NCBI RefSeq assembly: GCF_949628265.1
Contig: NC_088787.1
Span: 7,864,501 to 7,928,500, forward strand
Reading direction: 5' to 3'
DNA length: 64,000 nucleotides
Source: Cloeon dipterum
Taxonomy: Eukaryota > Arthropoda > Insecta > Ephemeroptera > Baetidae
Positions 14,696 to 64,000 of this stretch are shown piece after piece. Numbering within the stretch: the stretch's first letter is position 1; every line of letters begins with the position of its first letter. The position numbers and the translations under genes were made by a program. The notes beneath the pieces were generated by a model. It ran no database searches. It was not told where the DNA came from and saw nothing but the letters and a program-made list of their open reading frames with translations.

Positions 14696-15110
14696 CCCGT
14701 TGGCTCGCATTGCTAAGGCACTCTCATGAGTGTCAAAGCAATGGGAGGTATTTGAGCAGTTCGGAGATCTAATACTGGCTACCCAATGTCAGAGATGGCA
14801 AAAAGTGGTTAGTTTAGTGACTCGAAATGCTCAAATTGCTCCACGGGCTGGGAGGCGCACCGGCGCCGATTCGCTACTTGCTGGTTTGCACCTTTCCAGC
14901 GTGCGTGATTTGGCTTCACGGGACGAATGTCTAGCGTTTCAATGCAGTCCTCGGTGCGGAGGCAAGTGGCCCTTGAGTGGGCTGGGTCCCTGTGCGGCCT
15001 GGTGCGCCCATGTTATCCGTTCGCGGTGTTATTGGCACCCGGGTTTCAGCATTCGTGCTAGTGCAGTAAGCGGCCTTCCCGCTCCGAGGATAGGAATAAA
15101 AAGAGCAAAA
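14696..15110 (+). mobile_element. SINE-like element B, most complete copy
   Basis: The element has the full head, with a possible box A (TGGCTCGCATTGC, from 14,701) and a possible box B (AGTTCGGAGATCT, from 14,759). The GC-rich body is shared with the copies at 1.8, 4.0, 17.7 and 55.8 kb, and the tail is A-rich (from about 15,095). It is not flanked by repeat A, showing that B moves independently. A frame of 173 codons runs through it and into flanking sequence, but this is repeat sequence and no gene is called. Confidence 0.65.
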
Positions 15111-15244
15111 AAATGTATGAATAATTGTAATTATGTCATAAAATGTTTAGAATATGCTGCAAATAAATATATTAAACGCAAATTAAAGCATAGTTTCAAC
15201 TCGTTCCAAACCCGTGTCAACTCGATCGTGACTCGTTCCCAAAT

Positions 15245-17614: not shown

Positions 17615-17860
17615 TATTTTTTTTGCTCTTTTTATCCCTGTCCTCTCGGACCGGGAAGGGCGCACACTGCACTAGCACGAATGCTGAAACCCGGGTGCCA
17701 ATAACACCACGAACGGATAACATGGGTGCACCAGGCCGCACAGGGACCCAGCCCTCTGAAGAGCCACTTCTTGCCTCCGCACCGAGGAATTTTTTTTTTT
17801 TTTTTTTTGAAACGCTAGATATTCGTCGCGTGAAGCCAAAAAACAGCAAGTAGCGAGTCG
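17615..17860 (-). mobile_element. SINE-like element B, partial, reverse
   Basis: A reverse copy with the T-rich tail complement at about 17,615-17,630 and the body up to about 17,860. A run of some 20 T at 17,790-17,809 replaces internal sequence. The tRNA-like head is missing. Confidence 0.6.
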
Positions 17861-18124: not shown

Positions 18125-18371
18125 TCTGTCGCGTCAATCTCCAACACTAACTCAACCAGGTTTTAAGCTGGCAGCTTGCATCGCTCTTGAGATTGAGATG
18201 CTCTCTTGCATTAGGTCGCGTATTTTTCTGTAAAATCCGTGTAAGAACTCCTGCAACGATTTATACTATTCGAGAAATTGTTAGAATTGTGCGCCACGCG
18301 TTTTTGTCCGATGCAAGCTGCCAGCTTTTAAAACCTGGTTGAGTTAGTGTTGGAGATTGACACGCGACAGA
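18125..18371. repeat. Inverted repeat with arms of about 60 bp (foldback)
   Basis: The arms at 18,125-18,183 and 18,309-18,371 are almost perfect inverted copies: TCTGTCGCGTCAATCTCCAA on the left, and the same word with one 2-base insertion on the reverse of the right arm. They are separated by about 125 bp. Transcription would yield a long hairpin RNA. It lies about 530 bp upstream of the TAZ gene. It could be a MITE; no target duplication is clear. Confidence 0.7.
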
Positions 18372-18901: not shown

Positions 18902-20627
18902 ATGAGTGCCCCGAAAAAACCTAGGATTGATAAGCTGGCGCCTGGCCCCGGATTCACATTTGAGGCACTACGACAGATCAGGCGGCACTTGCTTCGTTTG
19001 CTACATGCACAAATCTGCACTATGGAAAAGGATGAGGTGAGAAAGATTTACAGAATTTATCATCCTCAACTTAAGTAAACGAACAATTTATTCCAGTGTT
19101 CCCACTTTGGCTGCTGCAACGTCAAATATGTACTACGTCACATGGATTCTTGCGATATTAAAGACACAGCTTGTGGCTTTACTCTCTGCGCGTCATACAG
19201 AAAAATTATGACACACTGGCATGAATGTTTAGAGCAGAATTGTCCAGTTTGCACTCCAGTCAGGAAACGCATTCCAGGAAGTGAGTCCGTTTTTCATTAT
19301 TTTTAAAATAAAAAAGGCTGTGGAATTTTGCGATTATCAAAAGCAACCCAGTCCACAAACGTCACACGAGCCGAGTTTCGATCGTGTGACTGTTTTTGGA
19401 TTTTTTTTGTGAATAACAGTTTGTTTACAAGACTTACAACAGTTTCCAAGCAGATTTATGGGGGTTTTCATAAATTCAACCCTTCTAAAATGCTGAACAA
19501 AAACACGTTCGTTTTTATATGAAAGGTAACCGTGTTTTTTTATTAGGTATCAAGAATGCCTTTATCCAGTGGCCCATTGAGTGGAGTTCAGTGTGGAGTG
19601 CAACGGAGGCCCATATAGAAAGACTGATAGACGGTTCTGCAGGCCCTGACCTTATTAATGGCATCTTGATGCCTGAGGGGATCTCAGACTCATCCGACAC
19701 GAGAAGCTCTCATAGCATGGAAAACTGGATGCATCCTCCAGAGCAGAAGAACAACAACAGCGATGACAGGTGTGAAGAAATACCTGAAAATCCTTTACAA
19801 AAACTGTGGCACCCTACGGTAAGCTCTTTGAATATTAATTATTGTAGCCGACGATATAATTGAGCGTTGATCTTCTTATTTGCAGTTTCAGCGTTACCAT
19901 GACATGGCCAAGGAGACTGGATTTCAGGATTCAGGTAAGCGCTCATGGATATATTATCAACTTTGTCTTAGAAAAAAGCTTGAACAGTCGAGAAACCAAT
20001 TAATTTCACAGTCATTTTTTGCTTTCACGAGTGCGAAAATTATATATTTGATGATTATTTAAGGCAAAATATTGCCAGTTTAAACAGAAAATGCGATTCC
20101 CAAAATTAAGCGATGCATATATATCAATTTCGTGTAGGGTAGAGACTAGAGACGTTCAGAGAAAAGTTTGAAGGGAAATAAAAATGAATGAATTTTTCAG
20201 AACAAAAAAATCTAAATTGCGTACTAAAAACCTTGAGAGATCTTGGAATCTACGACACAATCCTGGGACAATACAGTCATTATGGACGCAACTTGAAACG
20301 GCATTTGACATTTACACTGATTTGCTACAACAGCTACCGCCAAGGGATTGAAGCCTACACTGGGAACGGAACGCAGACGACGCAGGTATGTAATAAGAGA
20401 ATTTAATAATTATTGAGAATGCTTAAAACTTATTATTATGTCTTGCTCCACAGTGCACCCACGAGATCTGCAGTTTTATGATCAATCAAATGAGCCACTT
20501 TGACACATGTGAGGACCGTAAGACTTGTGCAAATCAAGCCTGCCCGCCACTTTGCGCATTAATTGATCACTGGAAGCTATGCATCATGAACCAAGAGTGT
20601 CCAGTGTGTTCTGATCTGTATGATTAG
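18902..20627 (+). CDS. Protein with two TAZ-type zinc-finger modules (CBP/p300 TAZ1-like)
   Basis: Six exons: 18,902-19,036, 19,097-19,280, 19,547-19,818, 19,886-19,934, 20,201-20,385 and 20,454-20,627. They join in frame to 332 residues. Residues 29-97 form a complete TAZ1-type fold with all twelve zinc ligands: H35, C39, C46, C51; H60, C64, C71, C76; H85, C89, C94, C97. The spacings are close to those of CBP TAZ1. Residues 248-327 form a second module with ligands C276, C281, H290, C294, C300, C305, H314, C318, C324 and C327. The expected first H and C are I254 and S258, so its first zinc site is incomplete. The linker (99-247) has no domain that I recognise; I see no convincing KIX, bromodomain or HAT. 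TAZ domains bind transcription-factor activation segments, so a nuclear, CBP-like adaptor or competitor is an inference. The start codon follows a possible 5' UTR splice acceptor (TTTTATAG, to 18,879). Confidence 0.8.
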
Positions 20628-57728: not shown

Positions 57729-59855
57729 TAGTGCTTTGCGCGGGTCGCGGGTTTGAAGGTTGAACCCGCAAAACCCGCACCAAACCCGCGGGTGCGGGTC
57801 CAGATTTTGCAAATCCAATATGGCGTAGTGCGGGTTGACTCAGCAAACCCGCAACTTTTTTGTAATTCTAATAGCACCAACAACAGACCCTCCTGCCAGC
57901 ACCAAAAACAGAAAAAAACGGCCCCTCCTGCTAGTACCAAAAAATGACCCCAATACACAAAAAAATGACCCCTCTGCACCAAAAAATGACATTTTTTTCC
58001 ATAGGGAGGGGTCAATTTTTTCCCTAGGGAGGGGTCAATTTTTTCCCTAGGGAGGGGTCATTTTTTTCCATAGGAAGAGGTCAATTTTTTCCATAGGGAG
58101 GGGTCATTTTTACCATAGGGAGGGGTCATTTTTTTCCATAGGGAGGGGGCACTTTTTTCCAAAGGGAGGGGTCATTTTTTTCCATAGGGAGGGGTCAATT
58201 TTTTCCCTAGGGAGGGGTCAATTTTTTCCATAGGGAGGGGTCATTTTTTTCCATAGGGAAGGGTCATTTTTTCCATTGGGAGGGGTCATTTTTTTCCCTA
58301 GGGAGGGGTCATTTTTTTCCCTAGGGAGGGGTCATTTTTTCCCTAGGGAGGGGTCATTTTTTTCCATAGGGAGAGGTCAATTTTTTCCATAGGGAGGGGT
58401 CATTTTTACCATAGGGAGGGGTCATTTTTTTCCATAGGGAGGGGGCACTTTTTTCCAAAGGGAGGGGTCATTTTTTTCCATAGGGAGGGGTCAATTTTTT
58501 CCCTAGGGAGGGGTCAATTTTTTCCATAGGGAGGGGTCATTTTTTTCCATAGGGAAGGGTCATTTTTCCATAGGGAGGGGTCATTTTTTTTCCCTAGGGA
58601 GGGGTCATTTTTTTCCCTAGGGAGGGGTCATTTTTTCCCTAGGGAGGGGTCATTTTTTTCCATAGGGAGAGGTCAATTTTTTCCATAGGGAGGGGTCATT
58701 TTTACCATAGGGAGGGGTCATTTTTTTCCATAGGGAGGGGGCACTTTTTTCCAAAGGGAGGGGTCATTTTTTTCCATAGGGAGGGGTCAATTTTTTCCCT
58801 AGGGAGGGGTCAATTTTTTCCATAGGGAGGGGTCATTTTTTTCCATAGGGAAGGGTCATTTTTTCCATAGGGAGGGGTCAATTTTTTCCATAGGGAGGGG
58901 TCATTTTTTTCCATAGGGAAGGGTCATTTTTTCCATAGGGAGGGGTCATTTTTTTTCCCTAGGGAGGGGTCATTTTTTTCCCTAGGGAGGGGTCATTTTT
59001 TCCCTAGGGAGGGGTCATTTTTTTCCATAGGGAGAGGTCAATTTTTTCCATAGGGAGGGGTCATTTTTACCATAGGGAGGGGTCATTTTTTTCCATAGGG
59101 AGGGGGCACTTTTTTCCAAAGGGAGGGGTCATTTTTTTCCATAGGGAGGGGTCAATTTTTTCCCTAGGGAGGGGTCAATTTTTTCCATAGGGAGGGGTCA
59201 TTTTTTTCCATAGGGAAGGGTCATTTTTTCCATAGGGAGGGGTAATTTTTTTCCCTAGGGAGGGGTCATTTTTTTCCCTAGGGAGGGGTCATTTTTTTCC
59301 ATAGGGAGGGGTCATTTTTTTCCATAGGGAGAGGTCAATTTTTTCCATAGGAAGGGGTCATTTTTTCCATAGGGAGGGGTCATTTTGCTGAAAAAAGTGA
59401 CCCCTATGCACCAAAAAAATGACTTCTCTGCACTAAAAAATGACCCCACTGCACCAAAAAATGACCCCTATACTCCAAAAAGTGACCCCTATACACCAAA
59501 AAGTGACCCCTCTGCCTGCACCAAAGTGACCCCTCTACTTGCCTTCAAGCCGTGTTTAATTTAACGTAAAATTTGGCAAAATCTGAAATTTAATTTTCCG
59601 TGGTCTTGATTTCATTACTACACATTTTAAAGATAAACTGACCCGCAAAACCCGCACCAAACCCGCGGGTACGGGTCCTGATTTTGCAAATCCAATATGG
59701 CGGATTGCGGGTGCGGGTTGGCGCTAGGTTGGCGTAGTGCGGTTTGGGGCGGGTTCAAATTTTGAAAAAAGACATGGGTGTGGTTTGGGTGCGTTACGAA
59801 ATAAGCGGGTTCGGTGCGGGTTTGGGTTGAAAATTTGTGCCCGCGCAATGCACTA
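57729..59855. mobile_element. Non-autonomous hAT-like DNA transposon with an internal minisatellite
   Basis: The element is bounded by a perfect 8-bp duplication GTGCATAG (57,721-57,728 and 59,856-59,863), which fits the nTnnnnAn target consensus of Ac-type hAT elements. The ends are inverted repeats: TAGTGCTTTGCGCGGG on the left and, read inward, TAGTGCATTGCGCGGG on the right (one mismatch in 16). They agree with the hAT start pattern YARNG. Subterminal regions carry repeated ACCCGC or GCGGGT words on both sides (57,740-57,845 and 59,640-59,850), like transposase-binding subterminal repeats. The body is a tandem array. There is no transposase gene; the short frames are not proteins. Confidence 0.85.
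57988..59386. repeat. Minisatellite, unit about 23 bp, with higher-order structure
   Basis: About 60 tandem units of the form CATAGGGAGGGGTCATTTTT with variants: CCCTAGGG, GGTCAATT, AGGGGGCACTTTTTTCCAAAG and TTTTACCATAG. The GGGGGCAC variant recurs at 58,140, 58,436, 58,732 and 59,097, giving spacings of 296, 296 and 365 bp; variants between these markers repeat in the same order. This is a higher-order repeat of about 296 bp with one expanded period. The flanks at 57,940-57,985 and 59,395-59,530 carry looser units in the opposite orientation (AAAAAATGACCCC). Confidence 0.9.
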
Positions 59856-62459: not shown

Positions 62460-64000
62460 ATGCTGAGTTTGCCGGCAAGAAGGATTGCAACTTGTTATCT
62501 CACACTGATTGGCGGCAAAATGAGTACATCAGCGGCAGCTAAAGATCTCAACAAGGATCTCTGCGGCATGTTGAAACGTAAAGTGAATTATTATTTCCTT
62601 AAGTTGGTGACAAAATTGGCGTCCATCCCCCGTGTCATTATTTTATGACTCGTTATTAATTCGAATTTTTCCTAAATTCAAAGAAAATTGAAGAGCGTTA
62701 AAATTATTTTAACCAGATTTTTATTAAGATGAATAGAAAATTTCATAAATTAAAAATTATTCCAGAACTAGCGGAATACGAGTTGGCAGTAAACAAAAAC
62801 ATGTACAAAAGTCGTGCCTACAAACAGGCGGCGGCCACCCTGGCTAAATTGGACTACAAAGTCTCCTCAGGAGAAGAGGCGAAAAAGCTGAAGGGCATCG
62901 GCGACAAGATCAGCAAGAAAATCGACGAGTTCCTTGCCACCGGCACTTTAAGAAAGCTCGACAATGTAAGCAAAAATAATTGTTACCCTGATAGAAAACT
63001 GATAAAATTAAATTTTCAGATTCATAAAGACGCCAACAGCGAAGCAATAATTCTGCTATCCAGAGTGCATGGAATTGGATCAGCGAAAGCTCGCGAGCTG
63101 GTCACTGATTTCGGAATTAATTCATTAGAGCAGCTCCGGCAGCGTCAGGACGAGCTCAACCTCAATCATCACCAATTAATTGGCATCAAGTGAGATAAAA
63201 AATATTATAATCAATGAAAATTAGGGAAAATCTAAGAAAACGATTTTATTTTTGAATTTTTCAAATGCAAAAGAAACATTTTGCTGAAACATAATTGTGT
63301 TGATTTTCTGATCAGCTGGTTTTAAAAATGTTATCGTTATTAAAATATTTCAAATTTAAAAAGAAAAATGCCAATTCATTTAGTTAATTAATTTTAATTT
63401 TCAGATACTTTGAGGATTTTGAGCAGCAAATTCCCCGAAAGGAGATCATAAAAGTGGAGAAAATAGTAAAAGATCACATTGCCAACTTCGACCCTGAGCT
63501 GCAAGTTACATTTTGTGGGAGCTACCGGCGCGAAAAACCTGAGAGCGGTGACATGGACATTTTAGTAACAAAGTCAAGCTATGTCTCCACGTGTGACAAA
63601 AAAGAAGGATCCACCATCCTCCGCAACTTTGTCAGCGAACTGGAAAAAATCCAATTGATCACCGGTACCATCTCCATTGGCGACGTCAAATTTATGGTAA
63701 GCGGCGAGGTCAATATTTTATTAAGTAGAAAACAACAGTTAATTAAAAAGGTTAAAAAGCTTTGAAATTCTGATTCTATTTGATATAATGAAAATTTGTT
63801 TCCATGTTTTTTAATTCTCTGATTATCTGAGTTTAAAAAAAAACTATTTATTATTCCATTGAATTCCAGGGTGTTAGTAACATAGGTAGAGTTAAAGGGC
63901 ACGAGAAGAAAGACGCGTTGTACCGCCATGTGGACATCCGGGTTTGTCCCAGTGATCAGTACCATTGTCACATTCTGCACTTTACTGGCAGCAGCCTCTT
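62460..64000 (+). CDS. POLB: DNA polymerase beta, 5' part (runs off the window)
   Basis: Exons 62,520-62,577, 62,766-62,965, 63,020-63,189, 63,405-63,696 and 63,870 to the end join in frame; the last is cut by the window edge. Pol beta fills short gaps and removes 5'-deoxyribose phosphate in base-excision repair. The 8-kDa lyase domain is shown by SRAYKQAAATLAKLDYK and GIGDKISKKIDEFLATG, with the lysine equivalent to human K72 present. The helix-hairpin-helix motif is SRVHGIGSAKARELV. The polymerase domain follows with FCGSYRRE, the catalytic aspartates in SGDMDILVT and the third in HVDIRV. The family start fits MSTSAAAKDL at 62,520 (strong AAAATG context). An in-frame ATG at 62,460 would add MLSLPARRIATCYLTLIGGK, which resembles a mitochondrial presequence. 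The C-terminal third is outside the window. Confidence 0.95.

Follow-up and report, generated by a model that had tools for sequence, protein, structure and literature searches.

The gene at positions 18,902 to 20,627 of the window, by which we mean the whole 64,000-nucleotide stretch of Cloeon dipterum DNA analyzed here (contig NC_088787.1, 7,864,501 to 7,928,500, forward strand), encodes a small protein of 332 residues carrying two TAZ domains, both of the TAZ1 type. We consider it about an even chance that this gene is a member of a lineage-specific family of twin-TAZ1 proteins which descend from TAZ1 of the genome's own CBP and compete with CBP or buffer its recruitment. CBP and p300 are hubs whose limited supply is divided among many transcription factors. 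The TAZ1 domain of CBP/p300 is described as a docking site at which transcription factors compete (PMC12547938).

The six exons proposed by the first-pass annotation join at GT-AG borders into an uninterrupted frame of 332 residues plus a stop codon, with intron phases of 0, 1, 0, 1 and 0. Three paralogs, described below, have the same exon order, phases and open frame. The main features, with the two modules designated A and B, are as follows.

Exon 1, 18902..19036, plus strand: start codon, basic N-terminus MSAPKKPR, and helix 1 of module A with H35 and C39.
Intron 1, 19037..19096, plus strand: 60 bp, phase 0, directly 5' of C46, with one in-frame TAA.
Exon 2, 19097..19280, plus strand: remainder of module A with ten ligands, C46 to C97; zf-TAZ with TAZ1 spacing.
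Exon 3, 19547..19818, plus strand: linker, with the family motif L..(I/F/L)WH at its end.
Exon 4, 19886..19934, plus strand: short linker exon (FQRYHDMAKETGFQD) with an FxxYH counterpart in paralog g6817p.
Exon 5, 20201..20385, plus strand: N-terminal half of module B, with C220 (20218-20220) and a helix 1 carrying I254 and S258.
Intron 5, 20386..20453, plus strand: 68 bp, phase 0, directly 5' of C276.
Exon 6, 20454..20627, plus strand: remainder of module B with ten ligands, C276 to C327, H278 (20460-20462) and the stop codon.

Codon 45 closes exon 1 and codon 275 closes exon 5, while C46 and C276 begin exons 2 and 6; a phase-0 intron thus lies directly before the first Cys of both modules, at the E45/C46 and Q275/C276 borders where it had been placed. 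A first exon like exon 1 was also present in the paralogs at C2:6817324 (-), C2:6813035 (-) and C2:6817818 (+). The N-terminal MSAPKKPR could serve as a nuclear signal; the paralogs show only PKIPR.

Several features of the surrounding DNA were recorded. A 37-base inverted repeat, 97% complementary, occupies window positions 18130-18166 and 18328-18364, about 540 bases upstream of the start codon. Farther upstream, inverted arms of about 200 bases (14909-15113 and 17618-17840), 93-94% complementary and 2.5 kb apart, look like those of a transposon with terminal inverted repeats. Positions 57990-59386 hold a 1.4-kb tandem array with a 23-base unit and higher-order periods of 137 and 296, and reading frames at 62702-63765 resemble DNA polymerase beta by eye.

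A Pfam search of the 332 residues identified zf-TAZ (PF02135) in two stretches, with an E value of 2.5e-19 and 69.9 bits against a cut-off of 25, and no other family at E<=1. The same search found no HAT_KAT11, KIX or bromodomain in the protein, in agreement with what had been read from the sequence. Each module also exceeded the zf-TAZ cut-off on its own in a genome-wide profile search, at 47.3 and 31.3 bits.

Both modules have the ligand spacing of TAZ1, as the first-pass annotation had claimed. Module A retains all twelve zinc ligands (H35, C39, C46, C51, H60, C64, C71, C76, H85, C89, C94 and C97) in the TAZ1 order of HxxxC in helix 1 followed by CxxxxC, HxxxC, CxxxxC, HxxxC and CxxC. Module B retains ten (C276, C281, H290, C294, C300, C305, H314, C318, C324 and C327) and departs from the TAZ1 pattern at the helix-1 HxxxC of zinc site 1, where I254 and S258 stand in place of the first His and Cys. 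In both, CxxxxC forms the second zinc site and CxxC the third. TAZ2 has the opposite arrangement, with CxxC second and CxxxxC third; neither window module shows it, and the genome's own TAZ2 does. Searches of the PDB with phmmer agreed: with residues 1-107 as query, E values were about 4e-12 for TAZ1 chains of CBP/p300 and no better than 0.002 for TAZ2 chains. With module B the TAZ1 hits began at 2.4e-6, and TAZ2 chains did not appear up to E = 10. CBP/p300 TAZ1 is the best match of both. An AlphaFold2 model of module A computed from a three-row alignment had a mean pLDDT of 47.3 and gave no support for the fold.

The intron position points the same way. The phase-0 intron directly before the first Cys was found in both window modules and in TAZ1 of the genome's own CBP (C2:22126863-22127018, minus strand), which has the fold family, the ligand spacing and this intron before CxxxxC in common with the window gene. 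The genome's own TAZ2 shares the Pfam family zf-TAZ with the window modules and differs in its spacing and in having no intron there, the entire zf-TAZ profile being matched within one open frame of 223 residues. At the start of the C-terminal exon, an AG directly abutted the first Cys codon in all 33 modules examined. The donor scan recovered a phase-0 donor in 27 of them, CBP TAZ1 and its near copy included; in the other six, all A modules, it gave none or an implausible one. From this shared arrangement, and from the single frame of TAZ2, we conclude that the intron was inherited from CBP TAZ1.

Insects are expected to carry two zf-TAZ domains, both in a single CBP gene. A profile search of the genome (190 Mb, 10 contigs) returned 48 zf-TAZ matches, all above the cut-off, a count that is a lower bound and includes some partial matches. 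By location, C2 had 29 at 6.78-6.88 Mb, 6 around CBP (22.08-22.14 Mb), the 2 of the window gene and 6 at other places; C3 had 4 and C1 had 1. The only genome matches to KIX (in two pieces) and HAT_KAT11 lay together at C2:22.12 Mb, about 14 Mb from the window gene, so the genome has one CBP gene. Together with a protein that contains only zf-TAZ, this rules out the possibility that the window exons are part of a larger CBP-like gene. The genome also carries the insect gene Orco. Profile searches for chemosensory families gave 5 matches to 7tm_6 and 1 weak match to PBP_GOBP, the latter at odds with the 191 OBP genes given for Cloeon dipterum (PMC7250882), a species with 2n = 10 (PMC6446309).

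Using profiles of the four module exons, we scanned about 230 kb around the 48 matches and the window. A 100-kb cluster, 1 Mb from the window gene, contained 13 pairs in which an A module is followed by a B module on the same strand, bringing the A-B pairs to 14 with the window gene. In two of the 13 cluster pairs (6820/6822 and 6855/6856) the B module was damaged. Outside the cluster, a tblastn-type search with one B module picked up no B-type modules except that of the window and one in a broken copy; the other matches were either A-type modules or CBP TAZ1. Complete models were built for three cluster genes.

g6813m, C2:6813035-6810926, minus strand: open frame of 351 residues; zf-TAZ twice (Pfam).
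g6817m, C2:6817324-6814155, minus strand: open frame of about 315 residues; last ligand pair incomplete (CPLFH at the end).
g6817p, C2 from 6817812, plus strand: open frame of 338 residues; zf-TAZ twice (Pfam).

These proteins are 33-35% identical to the window protein. Their exon order and phases are those of the window gene, an agreement in phase that is partly by construction because the window model guided the choice of splice sites in the paralogs; the continuity of their frames is not a product of that choice.

The search also turned up other arrangements of TAZ modules. Two tandem A-B units, C2:6830236-6834222 and C2:6836126-6840111, lie 5,890 bases apart with identical module translations, and inside each there are also half of a further A module and additional N2 exons. 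The CBP TAZ1 exons have a near copy at C2:22138604-22139515, consisting of an N exon, a C exon and part of a second C exon; it shares the strand of CBP TAZ1, lies some 12 kb upstream of it and is possibly a fresh TAZ1-only copy. Beyond the genome's own TAZ2 there were six TAZ2-like matches (C2:31985808, 31987272, 22099515 and 22079470; C1:29501912; C3:7327168); the four that were placed in the module tree group with TAZ2, so TAZ2 seems to have multiplied as well. Six diverged TAZ1-like modules, at C3:521703, 523488 and 527097 and at C2:30670331, 31700921 and 31705995, fall outside the A and B groups.

The module tree was built from 45 modules and 55 columns. It omitted the identical copies A6836 and B6839, the copy at 6.965 Mb, the TAZ2-like matches at C2:22079470 and C3:7327168, and the partial modules 6842638, 6830862, 6836752, 22138628, 6856929 and 6822354. 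Eleven B modules and window module B formed one group (support 97/89), the TAZ2 rows a separate one (97/98), and a third (86/94, unstarred) took in 16 of the 17 cluster-type A modules. Two modules, A_6864 and window module A, were unplaced near TAZ1, and window module A joined no A module. In six AU tests, p was 0.034 for window A and window B as closest kin, weak as one test among six; 0.18 for window B with TAZ2 (log-likelihood 9.3 lower, 55 columns), which is not formally rejected; 0.29 for B with TAZ2; 0.34 for A with window A; 0.498 for A, B and the window modules held together, as likely as the free tree; and 0.51 for window A with TAZ1.

The first-pass annotation had proposed an intragenic duplication of a TAZ1 exon pair. 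An intron-bearing TAZ1 exon pair was indeed doubled, but not in this gene: a duplication private to it is rejected by the A and B clades and, with the reservation given above, by the closest-kin test. Since the 14 A-B pairs have the doubling in common, we favor a doubling that predates the family. As to how it arose, intragenic duplication and the fusion of two neighbouring single-TAZ1 genes are both compatible with the tests, the held-together tree included.

The loss of the first His and Cys from module B, seen at the outset, is confirmed, and that of the helix-1 His extends to all 13 readable B modules of the 14. Every one of the 14, counting B6856 and B6875 despite their broken frames, has a loop His within CxxxxC (C+2 in 13 modules, C+3 in one), and in the exon before it a Cys stands close to the start. 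In window module B these residues are H278 (C276+2) and C220, both kept in relatives. Because the pair occurs in 14 of 14, zinc site 1 of module B may have been rebuilt, as CxHxxC plus a Cys, rather than lost. Only slightly less than an even chance attaches to the alternative that module B is a degenerate TAZ1 with two zinc sites, the loop His and the exon-5 Cys being incidental legacies of one ancestor. The B modules form one clade, so that 14 of 14 does not equal 14 events, and the exon-5 Cys sits about 35 residues N-terminal of the lost His position. Among the 18 A modules listed, the helix His is kept in 17 (A3782 has Arg) and the loop His occurs in one, window module A itself, beside all twelve normal ligands; the loop His therefore need not be a ligand. 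Against a merely incidental loop His, it is as invariant as the ligands: across eight B C-terminal exons the invariant columns were the ten ligands, the loop His (H3) and W40, with one Cys and one Leu invariant in the preceding exon.

We compared rates of change between the window gene and its paralogs, for which dS is near saturation. In all three comparisons dN was lower in the modules (0.44-0.46 in A, 0.45-0.63 in B) than in the linker (0.95-1.06). A closer comparison came from C2:6964001-6966298, where part of the window gene has been copied together with its downstream flank; this segment is 93-94% identical and broken. Its gene portion (C2:6965208-6966298, minus strand; 94% identical, exon 3 onward plus downstream flank) has no first module and is frameshifted by a 2-base insertion in exon 5. 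Exons differed at 24 of 652 aligned bases (3.7%) and introns at 11 of 405 (2.7%), the exons changing no more slowly, which together with the damage to the copy counts against the gene model; the linker-side and zinc-core exons differed unequally, exon 6 at 1 of 146. Within the cluster, g6817m (C2:6817151 to 6814155) is a mosaic, with a module A 93% identical to that of its head-to-head neighbour g6817p and a linker and module B 88-91% identical to g6813m, which suggests gene conversion. Other relatives are damaged: B6784 and B6834 lack some ligands, and B6856 and B6875 are frame-broken, a pattern as in a family under weak constraint.

These observations bear on a rival reading, in which tandem duplication of the CBP TAZ1 exons has left by-products that decay or evolve under weak constraint and have little function. 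The identical tandem pair 6830/6836, the broken B modules, the truncated copy at 6.965 Mb, exons that changed no more slowly than introns against that copy, and the dN/dS of 0.076/0.114 for the close pair g6813m/g6817m are all in its favor. We nevertheless think it unlikely, given four complete frames with conserved splice phases, B modules that have retained the ligands and the loop His at 30-50% identity, and a slower pace of change in modules than in linkers when the window gene is compared with its paralogs.

The reading we prefer is a family of docking proteins made from TAZ1 of CBP. The window protein is unlike CBP in having no KIX, bromodomain, HAT, ZZ or TAZ2, in placing two TAZ1 modules in a small protein, and in its changed module B helix-1 ligands. 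The TAZ1 domain of the genome's CBP gene would have given rise to small proteins of two such domains, in which module A is predicted to fold and bind zinc as CBP TAZ1 does, and module B would be a diverged TAZ1 whose site 1 would replace the lost helix ligands with the loop His and perhaps with the Cys of exon 5. The twin protein would bind acidic activation domains of transcription factors, and having two modules would either increase avidity or allow different activation domains to be read. With no acetyltransferase, it would act as a competitor or buffer of CBP recruitment. Since the protein has two TAZ1 modules and no enzyme, this would be the simplest role of a putative nuclear protein, and competition is what was first suggested for it. 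A bolder form of the proposal, which we regard as doubtful, is that this insect family, fast-evolving and gene-converting, supplies decoys with twin domains, which adjust how activation domains reach CBP, and that it includes a new zinc-finger variant, in which the site-1 His of module B has moved from helix 1 into a CxHxxC loop and the fourth ligand is a Cys from an added N-terminal segment.

The two modules might instead form a bridge that holds two transcription factors together or tethers CBP-independent complexes. Two diverged modules, in separate A and B clades, on a linker of 108 residues with 19 acidic and 8 basic residues are consistent with such an arrangement, to which we give the same low probability as to the by-product reading. 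A shortened CBP retaining TAZ1 and TAZ2, which had been argued against from the start, is very improbable: the AU test alone does not reject module B with TAZ2, but the TAZ1-type spacing of both modules, the phase-0 intron, the grouping of B modules apart from TAZ2 and the PDB matches all stand against it.

Relatives of parts of this arrangement exist elsewhere. Plant BTB-TAZ (BT) proteins carry a TAZ domain without an acetyltransferase, as the window protein does, and differ in having one TAZ plus a BTB domain where the window protein has two TAZ and no BTB. In nematodes the CBP/P300 subfamily is tabulated with 12 genes in Pristionchus pacificus and 7 in C. elegans (PMC11075575), a lineage-specific multiplication of CBP-related genes as in the twin-TAZ1 family; that table passage gives no domain plan and mentions no two-TAZ1 plan. 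Among the literature matches listed there was no earlier report of TAZ multiplication in insects. Viral contigs gave 8 pattern matches and no relative by tblastn, and phage records gave no match.

If the preferred reading is true, these docking-only, doubled and multiplied proteins would provide a natural test of whether competition for activation domains is a means of regulation in animals. The family would also offer, should module B have a rebuilt site 1, a natural series of variants for following how the ligands of a structural zinc site change.
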